DNA of 48,809 bases, taken from positions 1-48,809 of the IMG/VR virus record IMGVR_UViG_3300047170_000011; one strand, given 5' to 3'. The notes beneath the pieces are model-generated. The model had not been told where the DNA came from. It ran no database searches and saw only the letters and a program-made list of their open reading frames with translations. The DNA comes from a virus. This document shows, piece by piece, positions 1 through 9,030 of the stretch (position 1 is its first letter; every line of letters starts with the position of its first letter). The position numbers were made by a program, and so were the translations under genes.

Positions 1-630
1 CGCTTTATGCGCATCCGACAACGTTTTCCCGACGTTTGCCATCCTCAGTCTTTCGCGGGTCTCCTGTGTCGGCGATTTCCCCGTAAGCGCAATGCTCATG
101 GCTATCCGCGTTTCAGCGGAGTGAACGTGCCCCATCCTTGCCGCGCTTATTTTAGCCCGCGTCGCCTCTGTCTGCTTCGCCCCTAATGAGCTGCCGGCAA
201 TCGGGCACATATTGAACCCGGTTAGAGGATTGATCGCTCCAGCTACGTCGATCCACGATTGCTCTCGAATCATCAATTCCGCGACGTTTGGAACGTATTC
301 CAACACCTCAAAAACAAACGCGCTCTCGCCGTATTTTAACCAAGCCCGCTGCAAGTGTGCGGCGTGGTGTTTCCCTTGGCGTAGCTGCGTGCGGTGCGAT
401 TTCCAGCGGGCTTTGAGTGAGACCGATGAGCCAATATACACCCTCCCGCCGTCAACATCGTGGCGAATGCAGTAGATTCCAGACCGGCACGAACCCGCGA
501 TCTGCGCCATTTGCTGCGCTTGCTCGGGCGTCGGGTAGAGCCGGTATGTGTTGGCCTTGCGGACGCGGCCACACCGGTCGGCTCCAGGCCCTGCCGTACT
601 CGTGGCGGAGGAGGTCAAAGCGAGGTCCAC
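1..630 (-). CDS. GIY-YIG homing-type endonuclease with NUMOD3-like repeats (3' end cut off by window)
   Basis: The minus frame is open from 697 to the window edge without a stop. It carries the GIY motif (SGIYCIRHD) and the YIG motif (GRVYIGSS), followed by KARWKSH, then NUMOD3-like repeats (TRAKISAARMGH, then ETRIAMSIALTGKSP, then ETRERLRMANVGK). This is the domain order of free-standing GIY-YIG homing endonucleases, which nick or cut DNA and bind through the C-terminal repeats. The segment just before the GIY motif (TYRLYPTPEQAQQMAQIAG) resembles the N-terminal helical segment of IS605 OrfB/TnpB-type transposases. The start is uncertain: GTG at 630 keeps that segment, ATG at 510 leaves only the nuclease. 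The gene is last in the leftward operon behind the repressor. The nuclease call is firm; the mobility of the element is inferred. Confidence 0.85.
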   Translation of the reverse strand, partial: MDLALTSSATSTAGPGADRCGRVRKANTYRLYPTPEQAQQMAQIAGSCRSGIYCIRHDVDGGRVYIGSSVSLKARWKSHRTQLRQGKHHAAHLQRAWLKYGESAFVFEVLEYVPNVAELMIREQSWIDVAGAINPLTGFNMCPIAGSSLGAKQTEATRAKISAARMGHVHSAETRIAMSIALTGKSPTQETRERLRMANVGKTLSDAHKA

Positions 631-731
631 CGAGCCAGGCGCTTGCGCCACGCATCGCGCCGGTCGGCGGAGAAGTTGCCGACGCGGAGCCACCAGTCAG
701 CCATAAACCGGGCCAATGAGATCCCGATCAC
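615..731 (-). CDS. Small basic protein, unknown function
   Basis: A 38-residue frame whose GTG start overlaps the TGA of the frame before it (GTGA). It contains MADWWLRVGN, then SADRRDAW and a basic tail RKRLARW. Packing with its neighbours by overlapping start and stop codons is the style of this operon and is the main support. The short hydrophobic N-terminus (IGISLARFMADWW) could touch a membrane, but it is too short for a confident call. No family is recognised. Confidence 0.4.
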   Translation of the reverse strand: MIGISLARFMADWWLRVGNFSADRRDAWRKRLARWTSL

Positions 732-1015: not shown

Positions 1016-1250
1016 AATCGTGTGCCTCATCGGAACAGATTTCTGTCTTTGTTCGGACGACACTTTGCTCGGCCCTTCTGCCAGTTTCCGTGTTGCAAGG
1101 ACGGAACTGGACAACAGACATGGAGCAGATGCGCGACGACGCGGCGATGCGCTCGCCGATGGGGGCGCCCCGAATCACAGGACCGCTCGGGGCAACACGG
1201 CACGCCGGGGCCGGGGAATCGACTGCACCTGTGTGGGAAACGGCGATCAC
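1005..1250 (-). CDS. Hypothetical protein between two HTH genes
   Basis: An 81-residue frame starting at GTG 1250, which overlaps the TGA of the LuxR-type gene (GTGA), and ending 11 bases inside the next gene. It contains GPVIRGAPIGERIAASSR and MSVVQFRPCN. No transmembrane helix or known motif is visible. The tight coupling at both ends supports translation. Function unknown. Confidence 0.45.
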   Translation of the reverse strand: MIAVSHTGAVDSPAPACRVAPSGPVIRGAPIGERIAASSRICSMSVVQFRPCNTETGRRAEQSVVRTKTEICSDEAHDYVT

Positions 1251-1717
1251 GACGCGGCAGCCTTCAACTCGGCCAACCGCCGCATCGCCGCCGCCGGGGA
1301 CACGCCCAGAACGGCACCGACATCGCGCCACCGCGTCCGAGCGGCCCGCATCTCGACCAGCGAGGCGTCCTTCTCGGCCGTCCAATGCAGGCGCTTCGGA
1401 TCGCGGCGCGGAGCCGGCGGGATGGTCCCGACATCGACCAGGAACGCATACCGCGCCAGCGCCGCGATGCTGCCGACGCCTAGCCGCGCGTAGAGACTGG
1501 CGCGATGGATCTCGACCGTGCGCGGGGAAACGCCGAGATGCCAAGCCACGGTTTTGTTGACCATGCCGCGCGCCAGAAGCCGCAGCACGTCCTGCTCACG
1601 CGGCGAGAGTTGCGCGACCTGGGCGGCGGCGTTGCCGATCTCGGACAGGAGGGCGATGGCGTGTGGGATGTGCGCCGGCGGGACTTTGGCGGCGGCGGCG
1701 ATGAGGGCTTCGTTCAC
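1247..1717 (-). CDS. LuxR-type HTH regulator without a sensor domain
   Basis: A 156-residue protein. Residues about 38-95 form a GerE/LuxR helix-turn-helix: LSPREQDVLRLLARGMVNK, then VAWHLGVSPRTVEIHRASL, then YARLGV. There is no receiver or autoinducer-binding domain; only about 35 alanine-rich residues precede the HTH. The C-terminal third (HWTAEKDASLVEMRAARTR, then WRDVGAVLGVSPAAAMRRL) looks like a second Myb/SANT-type DNA-binding module. It therefore probably binds DNA constitutively, with activity set by its level. It sits in the operon controlled by the immunity repressor and overlaps the upstream gene by ATGA. Confidence 0.8.
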   Translation of the reverse strand: MNEALIAAAAKVPPAHIPHAIALLSEIGNAAAQVAQLSPREQDVLRLLARGMVNKTVAWHLGVSPRTVEIHRASLYARLGVGSIAALARYAFLVDVGTIPPAPRRDPKRLHWTAEKDASLVEMRAARTRWRDVGAVLGVSPAAAMRRLAELKAAAS

Positions 1718-2218: not shown

Positions 2219-2310
2219 GCCGATCCCCAATCCAGAAACATCCAGGCGAGCGCGCTGCCCAGCGGGATGCCGATCGCGGCGGATAGGGCGATGGTGGTGA
2301 GGCAGCGCAT
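2209..2310 (-). CDS. Tiny membrane protein
   Basis: A 33-residue protein starting at ATG 2310, overlapping the TGA of the upstream gene (TGATG). It reads MRCLTTIALSAAIGIPLGSA followed by LAWMFLDWGSACP, a single hydrophobic helix with a charged head, either membrane-anchored or a signal peptide. It overlaps the next gene by 10 bases. Third of the small membrane proteins in this operon. Confidence 0.45.
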   Translation of the reverse strand: MRCLTTIALSAAIGIPLGSALAWMFLDWGSACP

Positions 2311-2528
2311 CACCCCACCCCACGAAACGGAGGCAGCGGATGCGCCGCGAGCCACGCCACCAGCGCCGGGCGGTCAAAGACGTTGACCCGCCGGCCGGGA
2401 GCTACCCCGCCTCCTCCCATGTCGGTGCGTTTGTTATGGGATCGGGGCGCCGGCCTTTCCGGAGCCGCGCTGTCCGGCGGCGTCGGTGTTCCCCTAGGCA
2501 TCGTGGGAAGTTGCAGGGGTTGGGGCAT
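2310..2528 (-). CDS. Hypothetical protein, proline-rich N-terminus
   Basis: A 72-residue protein starting at ATG 2528, which overlaps the stop of the repressor gene. The first 45 residues are proline- and arginine-rich and probably disordered. The end reads VFDRPALVAWLAAHPLPPF, a short ordered helix. It is co-transcribed and translationally coupled to the repressor. No known family. Confidence 0.55.
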   Translation of the reverse strand: MPQPLQLPTMPRGTPTPPDSAAPERPAPRSHNKRTDMGGGGVAPGRRVNVFDRPALVAWLAAHPLPPFRGVG

Positions 2529-2743
2529 CAGGCGGCCTCGGCCTCGGCCGACGCGCTCTTGCGCAGCACCTCCAGGGTGATGCCCTCAATTCCATCCTTC
2601 TCAGCAATCTCGATGAGGTCGGGCCACCGCCCCTTCGGGATGCCGGTCTGTAGCCAGTTGGATATAGCCGGCGCACCGCACCCCAGCTTTTCGGCCAGTT
2701 TGCTGCCGCCGCCCATGGCCTTGATGATCTCGCGAGGTGTCAT
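2528..2743 (-). CDS. Cro/CI-like repressor (YdaS-type HTH)
   Basis: A 71-residue helix-turn-helix protein: MTPREIIKAMGGGSKLAEKL, then GCGAPAISNWLQTGIPKGRW, typical of short phage Cro/YdaS-like regulators. The recognition helix is around GAPAISNWLQTG. It is the first gene of the leftward operon. The -10 element of its promoter ends 7 bases before ATG 2743 and no Shine-Dalgarno sequence is present, so the mRNA is probably leaderless, as for lambda cI from PRM. An operator lies in the promoter spacer, which predicts autoregulation. No cleavage domain is present, so SOS induction by self-cleavage is not expected. Confidence 0.85.
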   Translation of the reverse strand: MTPREIIKAMGGGSKLAEKLGCGAPAISNWLQTGIPKGRWPDLIEIAEKDGIEGITLEVLRKSASAEAEAA

Positions 2744-2750
2744 GCGCAGG

Positions 2751-2779
2751 ATAATTCACCAATGGTGAAAACCTGTCAA
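2751..2779 (-). promoter_or_regulatory. Repressor promoter, leftward
   Basis: On the minus strand a consensus -35 (TTGACA, 2774-2779), a 17-base spacer and a -10 (AATTAT, 2751-2756) point to the repressor gene. The -10 is followed by 7 bases and then the ATG, giving a leaderless or nearly leaderless transcript. The perfect operator TTCACCAATGGTGAA (2755-2769) overlaps the spacer and the -10. Confidence 0.75.
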
Positions 2780-2993
2780 CCGCCGTTTCGGGCTTCGTCG
2801 ATTTCACCGATGGTCGAGTGCGCCTTCAGCGGGCGTGAGGCACCGTAGGCGCATGAAGCCGGTCGAAGTGAACGAAACCCTTTGCACGCGACATCATACT
2901 GAACTACCCTTTGGTGAAGCGGCTTTTCACGCCGCGTGAAATTTCTTTGGGCGTCATGTCGATTTAGGCTTGCCAATCTTCACCGTTGGTGAA
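2755..2993. promoter_or_regulatory. Operator array TTCAC-N5-GTGAA (five sites)
   Basis: Five dyad sites of one pattern: 2755-2769 (TTCACCAATGGTGAA, perfect arms), 2803-2817 (left arm perfect, right arm GTCGA), 2904-2918 (right arm perfect, left arm CTACC), 2926-2940 (TTCACGCCGCGTGAA, perfect arms) and 2979-2993 (TTCACCGTTGGTGAA, perfect arms). The two outer perfect sites lie in the spacers of the divergent promoters. This is the layout of a lambda-type immunity region and the likely binding set of the repressor at 2528-2743. Nothing else in 2744-3029 looks coding. Confidence 0.75.
2893..2898 (-). promoter_or_regulatory. Possible third, leftward -10 element
   Basis: The minus strand reads TATGAT here, a good -10, but there is no matching -35 and the site at 2904-2918 covers the spacer. 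Transcription from it would run over the inner operators into the repressor gene, as an establishment promoter would. Weak evidence. Confidence 0.25.
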
Positions 2994-2998
2994 ATTCT
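2970..2998 (+). promoter_or_regulatory. Early promoter, rightward
   Basis: A -35 (TTGCCA, 2970-2975), a 17-base spacer and a weak -10 (AATTCT, 2993-2998) face the early operon. The perfect operator 2979-2993 fills the spacer, the same geometry as at the repressor promoter on the other side. Confidence 0.6.
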
Positions 2999-3029
2999 CC
3001 CCCTCGTCACCAACGACGAGGACCGGCAG

Positions 3030-3242
3030 ATGCCCAACCCCACCATCGCCCACCTGATCGAGCAGCTCGACCTGATCGACCGCACGGCCCGCGAGATCGC
3101 CCCCACGATCGGCACGCTCAACGGCGCCGGCGTGCTGGGCCATGGCTCCCTCGGTTCGCTGTCCTGCCTCCAGATGCACATCGACGCCCTGCGCCGCCAG
3201 GTGCGGGAGTCCGGCGCGCTGACCGTGGCGCGGGTGGCTTGA
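3030..3242 (+). CDS. First early gene, unknown function
   Basis: A 70-residue protein from ATG 3030, chosen for the GAGGA about 7 bases upstream; a TTG at 2970 would overlap the promoter. It contains TIAHLIEQLDLIDRTAREIA and LQMHIDALRRQVRESGAL, two amphipathic helices around a glycine-rich turn. As first gene behind the early promoter it may be regulatory or act against the host, but no family is recognised. Confidence 0.6.
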   Translation: MPNPTIAHLIEQLDLIDRTAREIAPTIGTLNGAGVLGHGSLGSLSCLQMHIDALRRQVRESGALTVARVA

Positions 3243-3245
3243 GCG

Positions 3246-4121
3246 ATGAGTGAAACCCCGACCACCTTCCACATTCGCAACCGCTGGACCGGCGCGATCC
3301 AGTTTTCCTGCGAACTGAGCGGCGACGTATCCGGACATAGATACGGGCTGAAACTCGGCTTTGCGGTCAAGAAGGCGCTTGAGGCCCGCGCGGACCTGAA
3401 CGGCGCGGCCCTGACCGGCGCGGCCCTGACCGGCGCGGCCCTGACCGGCGCGGACCTGACCGGCGCGGACCTGACCCGCGCGGACCTGACCCGCGCGGCC
3501 CTGACCGGCGCGGACCTGACCGGCGCGGACCTGACCGGCGCGGCGCTGACCGGCGCGGCCCTGACCGGCGCGGACCTGACCGGCGCGGCCCTGACCGGCG
3601 CGGACCTGACCGGCGCGGCGCTGACCGGCGCGGCGCTGACCGGCGCGGACCTGACCGGCGCGGACCTGACCGGCGCGGACCTGACCGGCGCGGCCCTGAC
3701 CGGCGCGGACCTGACCCGCGCGGCCCTGACCCGCGCGGCCCTGACCGGCGCGGACCTGACCGGCGTAAAGCAGGACTTCCTTGCCGAAGTGCTGCGGCTC
3801 CCGAATGAATTGGAGGCTCTCTGTGAGGCCTTGATCGCCGGAAAGGTAGACGGCAGCACTTATTCCGGTGAATGCGCTTGCCTCGCTGGCACCCTCGCGA
3901 AGGCTCACGGCATCGCGCACTACGCCGGTGATGACATCGAAATCGGCTCCGTCACTTTTCATGCCCGGTCTTATTCGCCGCGCGAGATGTTCTTTCGCGC
4001 CATTTGTCCGGGCAATACCCCCGACAACAGCGCGGCAGCCAAGATCGCGCTGGAATGGACCCAGGAAGCCATCGCGATCCGAGACATGATCCGGGCCACC
4101 GCGCCGACCGAGGCCGCCTAA
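3246..4121 (+). CDS. Pentapeptide-repeat protein with 25 near-identical units
   Basis: A 291-residue protein. Residues 1-48 are a unique head; residues 49-173 are 25 pentapeptides, almost all AALTG or ADLTG with a few ADLTR/AALTR and one ADLNG; the remaining residues form a mixed alpha/beta tail (SPREMFFRAICPGNTP). Pentapeptide repeats fold as a right-handed quadrilateral beta helix, and some (Qnr, MfpA) mimic DNA and bind gyrase. Alternating A/D at one face position gives a striped negative surface. The gene starts 4 bases after the upstream stop and is second in the early operon. The DNA-mimic role is inferred. Confidence 0.85.
   Translation: MSETPTTFHIRNRWTGAIQFSCELSGDVSGHRYGLKLGFAVKKALEARADLNGAALTGAALTGAALTGADLTGADLTRADLTRAALTGADLTGADLTGAALTGAALTGADLTGAALTGADLTGAALTGAALTGADLTGADLTGADLTGAALTGADLTRAALTRAALTGADLTGVKQDFLAEVLRLPNELEALCEALIAGKVDGSTYSGECACLAGTLAKAHGIAHYAGDDIEIGSVTFHARSYSPREMFFRAICPGNTPDNSAAAKIALEWTQEAIAIRDMIRATAPTEAA
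3390..3764 (+). repeat. Tandem 15-bp repeat array, 25 copies
   Basis: Twenty-five consecutive 15-base units close to GCGGCCCTGACCGGC / GCGGACCTGACCGGC code the pentapeptides of the host gene. Units differ mostly at one base that switches A to D at residue 2, and sometimes G to R at residue 5. Such DNA-level identity points to recent expansion and predicts copy-number variation between relatives. Confidence 0.95.
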
Positions 4122-7423: not shown

Positions 7424-7686
7424 CCAGCGTCCCCCTCTCCCAATCCCTCCGAGCCGCCGCCCAGCAAGGCTGCGCCATGGCGATAGCCGGCGAACTCGAC
7501 GCGCTGCCCGACGACACGCGCCAGTGCATCGTGGCCCTGTTCCGCTGGCTGAATCTCGATGCCGCGCGCCAGGCCGAGGTGATGGAGGCGATTGCGGCCG
7601 AGCGGTTGCCAGATCTGGGCGAGCGGTTTCGGTCTGTGGGGGATGTGGTGCTGGAGGCTGTGGTGGGGTTGGGGGAACGGCGGTGA
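7420..7686 (+). CDS. Hypothetical early protein
   Basis: An 88-residue protein from ATG 7420 (ATGA overlap) with CAMAIAGELDALPDDTRQCI and LNLDAARQAEVMEAIAAERL. Alpha-helical and acidic. It sits directly before the Gp157/RecT pair and may belong to the same recombination block, judged by position only. Confidence 0.6.
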   Translation: MTSVPLSQSLRAAAQQGCAMAIAGELDALPDDTRQCIVALFRWLNLDAARQAEVMEAIAAERLPDLGERFRSVGDVVLEAVVGLGERR

Positions 7687-8216
7687 GCGCCACAATCAAG
7701 GCGCCGTCCGGCTGGACCATCGAAACGGTGATGGCGATTGCCAACTCGGCGCTGTCCCGGCTTGAAGCGTCCGACATCGACATGGCGATGGACGACGACG
7801 CGCTGCTGGAAATCTTGCGCGGCGAAGGCGCTGACGTGGACATGGTTTTGCGCCGCCTGATTCTCGCCAGCCTTGAAGCAAAGTCGCTGGCCGATGGTGT
7901 CAAAGCCCGTATGGACGATTTGCGCGCGCGCAAGGAGCGCTTCGAGAAGCGGGCCGAAGCATGGCGCGGCGCGGCGTTCGGCGTGATGGACGCGCTTGGG
8001 GTCACAAAGCACGTCACAGCCGAGTATACCGCCTCCCTTTCATCGCCCAGGCCGGGTCTCGTGATTACTGACGAGATGGCGTTGCCGGCCGAGTATGTCG
8101 TCGTCACCCGCGCGCCGGACAAGGCAAAAATCAAAGCCGCCATGGCCGAAGGCGTCGTGATTGACGGCGCGGAAATGCAGAACGGCAGTCCCGTTCTCAC
8201 AGTCAGGAGCAAGTAG
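7683..8216 (+). CDS. Siphovirus Gp157 family protein
   Basis: A 177-residue protein from GTG 7683. It shows the Gp157 pattern: an acidic N-terminal half, then SLADGVKARMDDLRARKERF in the middle coiled coil and the C-terminal beta segment (PGLVITDEMALPAEYVVVTR, then PDKAKIKAAMAEG, VIDGAEM). Gp157 proteins commonly lie beside single-strand annealing proteins and are thought to act in phage recombination or resistance. Here it precedes RecT, which fits. Confidence 0.85.
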   Translation: MSATIKAPSGWTIETVMAIANSALSRLEASDIDMAMDDDALLEILRGEGADVDMVLRRLILASLEAKSLADGVKARMDDLRARKERFEKRAEAWRGAAFGVMDALGVTKHVTAEYTASLSSPRPGLVITDEMALPAEYVVVTRAPDKAKIKAAMAEGVVIDGAEMQNGSPVLTVRSK

Positions 8217-8217
8217 C

Positions 8218-9030
8218 ATGAGCGTCACTGTCACCACTAGCACAGCATCGTTGGTGCCACAGACCATGGATCAAGCCGTGCGGCTGGCCGAGATCATGTC
8301 GCGTGGCAAACTGATCCCCGAACATATTCGCAATCCGGCCGATGCGCTCATGGTGATCGAACAGGCAATGCGGTGGAATATGTCACCTTTTGCCGTCGCC
8401 CAAGCCACATCCAGCATTCACGGGAAGCTGATGTTCGAAGGCAAGCTAGTCGCCGCCGCGCTGCATTCGTCGGGCGCGCTCGCGACGCGACTTGCCTACG
8501 ACTACGAAGGCGCGGGCGACAACCGGACGGTCAAAGTGTCCGCCACACTAGCCGGCGAGACGGCGCCCCGTGAACTGACGATCCGCTACGGCGACGTGAA
8601 AACGTCGAACGAATGGTGGAAGAAGCAACCCGATCAGCAACTCGCCTATTCCGGCGCTCGCAACTGGGCGCGGCGGTTCGCGCCCGAGGTCATGCTGGGC
8701 GTCTACAGCCCCGAGGAAATGGAACCCGTCGCGCAGGACTCCTACGCTGGCACCACAATTGAGGCCAAGGCAGAGCCGACACCCTCTACCGACACACCTA
8801 AGACTCGCACGGTTCGGGAATGGCTTGACGAGATCGAGGTTGCTTTCGAGGCCGCCACAACCGGCGCCGAGGTCGACAGCATCGTGGGTCGCCCCGAAGT
8901 TCAGAAGGCACTCGACACTTTCAAGAACGGTGCCCGCGAACGACTGAACGCAGCAATGAACAAGGCCCTGTCCCGCACGGCACCGTTTTATGACGACGGC
9001 TCTGGCGCCGCAGAACCCGCCGCCGCCTAA
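8218..9030 (+). CDS. recT: RecT-family single-strand DNA annealing protein
   Basis: A 270-residue protein with RecT-type sequence: AVRLAEIMSRGKLIPEHIRN, then MVIEQAMRWNMSPFAVAQAT, then HGKLMFEGKLVAAAL, NEWWKKQPDQQLAYSGARNW and ARRFAPEVMLGVYSPEEM. RecT anneals complementary strands during phage recombination and replication. No adjacent exonuclease (RecE or lambda Exo type) is visible. The C-terminal 70 residues are variable and acidic. It starts 2 bases after the Gp157 stop. Confidence 0.9.
   Translation: MSVTVTTSTASLVPQTMDQAVRLAEIMSRGKLIPEHIRNPADALMVIEQAMRWNMSPFAVAQATSSIHGKLMFEGKLVAAALHSSGALATRLAYDYEGAGDNRTVKVSATLAGETAPRELTIRYGDVKTSNEWWKKQPDQQLAYSGARNWARRFAPEVMLGVYSPEEMEPVAQDSYAGTTIEAKAEPTPSTDTPKTRTVREWLDEIEVAFEAATTGAEVDSIVGRPEVQKALDTFKNGARERLNAAMNKALSRTAPFYDDGSGAAEPAAA

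Follow-up and report, generated by a model that had tools for sequence, protein, structure and literature searches.

The divergent region at positions 2744-3029 of the virus record IMGVR_UViG_3300047170_000011 raises the question of what a small DNA-binding protein does when it seems to stand alone at a phage switch: whether it holds the lytic genes off in a lysogen, as a sequence-only reading of this DNA had proposed, or acts as a Cro that also limits its own synthesis. The term "window" refers here to the whole record of 48,809 bases, and the features of the region are collected in Table 1. We propose that the leftward gene encodes a dimeric Cro-type repressor which is made from a leaderless message, binds to TTCAC-N5-GTGAA, and would block both facing promoters, including its own; we put the probability of this reading at roughly 0.78.

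Table 1. Predicted features of the divergent control region and its two flanking genes (positions in the window)
Feature	Positions	Strand	Remarks	Basis
Cro-type repressor gene, 71 residues, P22_Cro/YdaS-like	2528-2743	-		HMM profiles, AlphaFold model
Putative leftward promoter	2751-2779	-	TTGACA (2779-2774), 17 bp, AATTAT (2756-2751)	Consensus and promoter scans
Predicted operator 1, TTCACCAATGGTGAA	2755-2769		Spacer, reaching 2 bases into leftward -10	Pattern scan; same place in SNW relatives
Degenerate site, TTCACCGATGGTCGA	2803-2817		2 mismatches, perfect left half	Pattern scan
Very weak site, TTCAGCGGGCGTGAG	2825-2839		2 mismatches	Pattern scan
Half-site, CTACCCTTTGGTGAA	2904-2918		Right half GGTGAA perfect	Pattern scan
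Predicted operator 2, TTCACGCCGCGTGAA	2926-2940		Inner base G/C instead of C/G; form as in the site of relative L325	
Putative rightward promoter	2970-2998	+	TTGCCA (2970-2975), 17 bp, AATTCT (2993-2998)	Sequence; promoter scoring
Predicted operator 3, TTCACCGTTGGTGAA	2979-2993		Spacer, reaching 1 base into rightward -10	Pattern scan
First rightward gene, 70 residues	3030-3242	+	GAGGA at 3018-3022, 7 nt before ATG 3030; normal leader	

A pattern scan finds TTCAC-N5-GTGAA in three exact copies in all 48,809 bases, and every one of them lies inside the 239 bases from 2755 to 2993. Between 2744 and 2999, the three exact copies compare with 0.0004 in shuffled sequences, and the five sites with up to two mismatches compare with 0.14. 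At the latter threshold the window as a whole contains 14 matches, which is the chance level (13.3), so that significance is limited to the 2744-2999 cluster. To speak of five sites of one pattern, as had been done, was generous, because two of the five are degenerate, with two mismatches each, and the one at 2825-2839 may be a chance match. Likewise, the best two sites were said to lie exactly within the 17-base spacers of two promoters; they are indeed found at both promoters, but run two bases into the -10 element on the left and one base on the right, which makes steric repression more plausible. Operator 2 is located outside any recognised promoter. A terminator-like hairpin at 2925-2941 was not accepted as a terminator, as it consists of this operator palindrome and a T-rich stretch.

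The leftward promoter, which had been noticed before, matches 10 of 12 consensus positions and is the sole consensus promoter in 2300-3300. Promoter scoring likewise ranks TTGACA-17-AATTAT as the best promoter ahead of the repressor ATG at 2743 (14.6 bits, on a scale of E. coli sigma-70 preferences, which may not be those of the GC-rich host). The -10 element ends 7 nt before this ATG, and no Shine-Dalgarno sequence precedes it; here the coordinates agree with the earlier description, and the geometry recurs across the family. The accompanying comparison with lambda cI transcribed from PRM fits as far as the leaderless start goes, but the homologues sit in the cro position, and the leaderless cro of phage PY54 is the better parallel. 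The rightward promoter is a less secure prediction. Of the promoters no more than 60 nt from ATG 3030, the likely start of the rightward gene, TTGCCA-17-AATTCT has the top score, but its -10 is weak (3/6 consensus matches) and was missed by the consensus scan; given this weak -10, the promoter may be misplaced or may need another factor.

Relatives were needed to judge the leaderless geometry. Direct protein searches of viral and genome contigs with the window repressor found none, tblastn gave two weak matches, and blastn against phages matched only in the DUF1643 region. Family searches across Alpha- and Gammaproteobacteria were used instead to gather relatives, and two of the relatives served as queries in IMG/VR. 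In a blind procedure, candidate in-frame starts near the domain were taken, and the best sigma-70 promoter position within 60 nt was then recorded. Among genome loci, the promoter ends 6-7 nt before the ATG in 17 of 37, compared to a mean of 1.6 and a maximum of 7 (of 37) with shuffled upstream sequences and to 5 of 118 other ORFs at the same loci. A gap of 5-8 nt was found at 7 of the 13 scored loci in a further set, and in 60 of 68 distinct viral relatives, which mostly belong to one subfamily and are not independent; control ORFs have this gap in 26 of 343 cases. Almost none of these 60 viral relatives has a Shine-Dalgarno sequence. An operator within the promoter and a message likely starting at the start codon are seen again in dozens of phage repressor genes related to this one, and, as far as this geometry can tell, a leaderless transcript is probably characteristic of the family. 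A test for palindromes in the spacer at 21 leaderless loci, including one (L075) that was set on a wrong ATG, gave a modest difference, with a mean score of 4.3 versus 2.8. No description of the family-wide spacing was found in the literature searched, a body of text to which most subscription journals do not belong.

It is very unlikely that the repressor message starts at a promoter further upstream and carries a normal leader, leaving TTGACA/AATTAT idle. A consensus match is not proof of use, and a minority of relatives (e.g., loci L117, L166 and L311) keep a clear leader with a Shine-Dalgarno sequence; against this, the window has neither a Shine-Dalgarno before 2743 nor another consensus promoter within 1 kb, and most viral relatives share its spacing.

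The top matches to the NCBIfam carphisopro profile were rejected as phage repressors, because there the profile hits a domain of long proteins, mitofilin-like by reading; at genome loci L039-L068 the domain likewise occurs in long alphaproteobacterial proteins of this look. As it stands, this NCBI family lumps Cro-type proteins of phages together with a domain of cellular proteins.

The 71-residue protein itself scores 45.1 against carphisopro, over the cut-off of 38, and matches PHROG 409 with 3e-8. Its matches to Pfam YdaS_toxin (E 5e-7, 29.8 bits) and P22_Cro (E 9e-5, 22.7 bits) are, respectively, just under the curated cut-off of 30 and under that of 30.2. A single-sequence AlphaFold model (pLDDT 85) has a Cro-like helical HTH fold; the nearest PDB folds are Xfaso-1 Cro and N15 Cro, with Foldseek probabilities of 0.91-1.00 but weak E-values (0.05 and worse), and identity to solved structures is only about 30%. 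The gene adjoins a divergent control region in which predicted palindromic operators lie. By HMM matches and modelled fold, then, the protein is a Cro of the P22-Cro/YdaS type, in accord with its first description as small and YdaS-like.

The recognition helix of this protein is predicted to be GAPAISNW, and the residue before its tryptophan appears to be informative. Where this residue is asparagine, the promoter spacer carries TTCA-N7-TGAA at 7 of 9 distinct loci, the window included, versus 1 of 112 others (Fisher 4e-9, a value which, like the counts, overstates significance, since the sequences are related and not independent). In particular, five distinct viral relatives, L324-L328, have PSAVSNW where the window has PAISNW, the genome locus L214 has SISNW, and all six carry TTCA-N7-TGAA in the spacer, e.g., TTGACGaaacTTCAAGCAGCATGAAtattgcgtcgtATG in L070/L324 and TTGACGcgcgTTCACGGAGCGTGAAtactgccgccccATG in L325. 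The latter carries exact TTCAC-N5-GTGAA three times; exact copies are also found about 420-450 bases upstream, beyond a CI-like gene. L328, the closest relative found (40% identity over 63 residues, E 2e-15), has the site TTGACTaacgcgTTCACCTCAAATGAActagcgggtATG. Helices of the SEW and similar types go with TAGG- or TTAG-type sites in the same place of the spacer; in the SEW-type Cro subfamily, viral loci L246-L320, the spacer palindromes are TTAGCTAGTCCTAA or TAGG-type, and nearly all loci are leaderless by geometry. The pairing of SNW with TTCA-N7-TGAA was derived in the present analysis from IMG/VR and genome loci; a related rule linking recognition helix and half-site in Cro proteins was proposed by Hall et al. 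2005, as cited in PMC4488713. A scan of viral contigs with the stricter pattern TTGNCA-N4-TTCACC-N3-GGTGAA gave chance matches only, none of them upstream of a small HTH gene; seven genome matches were kept only as genome handles.

The helix/operator pairing is, in our view, the strongest argument for the window protein itself as the reader of these sites, and we regard the earlier assignment of TTCAC-N5-GTGAA as its predicted operator as well supported by this comparison of sequences. That the sites are bound mainly by another protein, for instance a CI-like repressor, lost or distant, or the LuxR/GerE-type product of 1247-1717, and that the Cro-type protein binds elsewhere, is distinctly unlikely. 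Sites of this type are not confined to the Cro subfamily, since TTCACGATTCGTGAA is found at L180 upstream of an XRE gene of another family, and CI and Cro of lambda use common sites; on the other hand, the operator type varies with the helix residue that the Cro-type gene itself encodes, and the record yielded no CI-like protein. The XRE protein in question (L180:4237-4521) has leaderless geometry, with TTCACGATTCGTGAA at the same spacer position, and it is encoded on a temperate-phage contig, on which one ORF reads like an integrase and a CI-like gene faces the XRE gene.

Judging from translations, the gene opposite the Cro-type one is a CI-like XRE gene in the majority of the relatives inspected, which places the 71-residue gene in the cro position. 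In the window, profile search of the facing gene (3030-3242) detected no HTH, only DUF5955 with E 0.0075; it is not a CI-like repressor, and the second repressor that such switches usually have is absent from that position. Neither a Peptidase_S24 repressor nor a tyrosine or serine integrase (PF00589, PF00239) was found in the record, but the latter probably represents a fragment: neither terminase nor portal was recognised, and its left end cuts an open frame (1-693, minus strand) that reads like a GIY-YIG endonuclease. Such absences are, for this reason, weak evidence either way.

The same observations bear on the proposal that the locus is an immunity switch run by one protein, with the Cro-type repressor by itself keeping the lytic promoter shut during lysogeny. 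No other HTH gene lies at the divergent region, no S24 repressor was found, and the early operon's promoter is overlapped by a predicted operator; but no integrase was found either, relatives with this type of protein mostly face a CI-like gene, and with a Cro-type protein that shuts down its own promoter there is no obvious stable state or induction signal. We consider this proposal unlikely. Of the suggestion that the protein does the work of cI or Cro, the second half is favoured, given the place of its homologues, and the label of immunity switch is not borne out, though an immunity function is possible.

In the reading that we prefer, of a self-limiting Cro, the repressor message would begin at the AUG or within about 2 nt of it and would be translated without a leader. 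The protein made from it would form dimers and fill the sites at 2755 and 2979, which overlap the spacer and the -10 of both promoters, so that RNA polymerase would be excluded, repressor synthesis would be capped, and the rightward early operon would be turned down. The site at 2926, in its L325-like form, may be an auxiliary one.

The rightward early operon includes genes for a pentapeptide-repeat protein, a DUF1643 protein, a Gp157/Gam-like protein and, after it, RecT, the latter two being early recombination genes at 7524-9030. The pentapeptide-repeat gene (3246-4121) lies directly downstream of the rightward promoter and contains, at 3388-3765, 25 near-identical 15-bp units with 93% matches, which by the look of it were recently expanded. 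Downstream of the repressor gene, 1247-1717 (minus strand) encodes a small protein with a LuxR-type GerE domain and a DUF6362/AsnC-like HTH segment, a candidate for a second regulator.

Leaderless phage repressors are already known, and are usually told as single cases, i.e., lambda cI, cI and cro of PY54, and PaaR2. Here the spacing characterises, in statistical terms, an entire family of small Cro-type proteins, in IMG/VR contigs as well as in Alpha- and Gammaproteobacteria, and this is a more general result than the window, which adds a switch with an empty CI place. It offers an inexpensive way to locate the true start codons, promoters and operators of small Cro-type repressors, and the family is a test set for why a repressor would be made without a leader. 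A bolder statement would be that an orphan Cro, whose CI partner was lost or never present, runs the window's switch alone from a leaderless message, and that most of the P22-Cro/YdaS-like family is leaderless, with a spacer operator readable from the helix; we offer it tentatively, and find it somewhat doubtful as a whole.

In lambda, the operators of OR overlap facing promoters, and cI is transcribed from PRM without a leader; CI and Cro act on the same three sites, and CI activates a promoter. The window shares with it the overlap of operators with facing promoters and, judging from geometry, the leaderless repressor message, but nothing like two proteins on the same sites or promoter activation is seen, and, in contrast to a CI/Cro immunity region of the lambda type, no CI-like gene faces the cro-like one. 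The distant sites of L325, beyond its CI-like gene, are placed as OL is in lambda. With Xfaso-1 and N15 Cro, the nearest folds to our model, the shared idea is that the recognition helix predicts the half-site. In the telomere phage PY54, cI and cro transcripts start at the AUG, as determined by RACE (PMC4488713). There, too, a small Cro with a leaderless gene is found at divergent promoters, and binds a palindrome at the switch; however, a CI gene faces cro, and PY54 Cro has a single binding site, which lies upstream of cI (PMC4488713), whereas in the window there is no facing CI-like gene and exact predicted sites cover both promoters. In CP-933P, PaaR2 is leaderless and YdaS binds at both divergent promoters like Cro (PMC8630535). 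This system has in common with the window the YdaS family, divergent promoters, and one leaderless repressor, of two in its case; but the gene shown to be leaderless there is the CI analogue (PMC8630535), whereas in the window it would be the YdaS/Cro-type gene, and the operator of CP-933P is of the GTTTAGTAA type, as opposed to TTCAC in the window.
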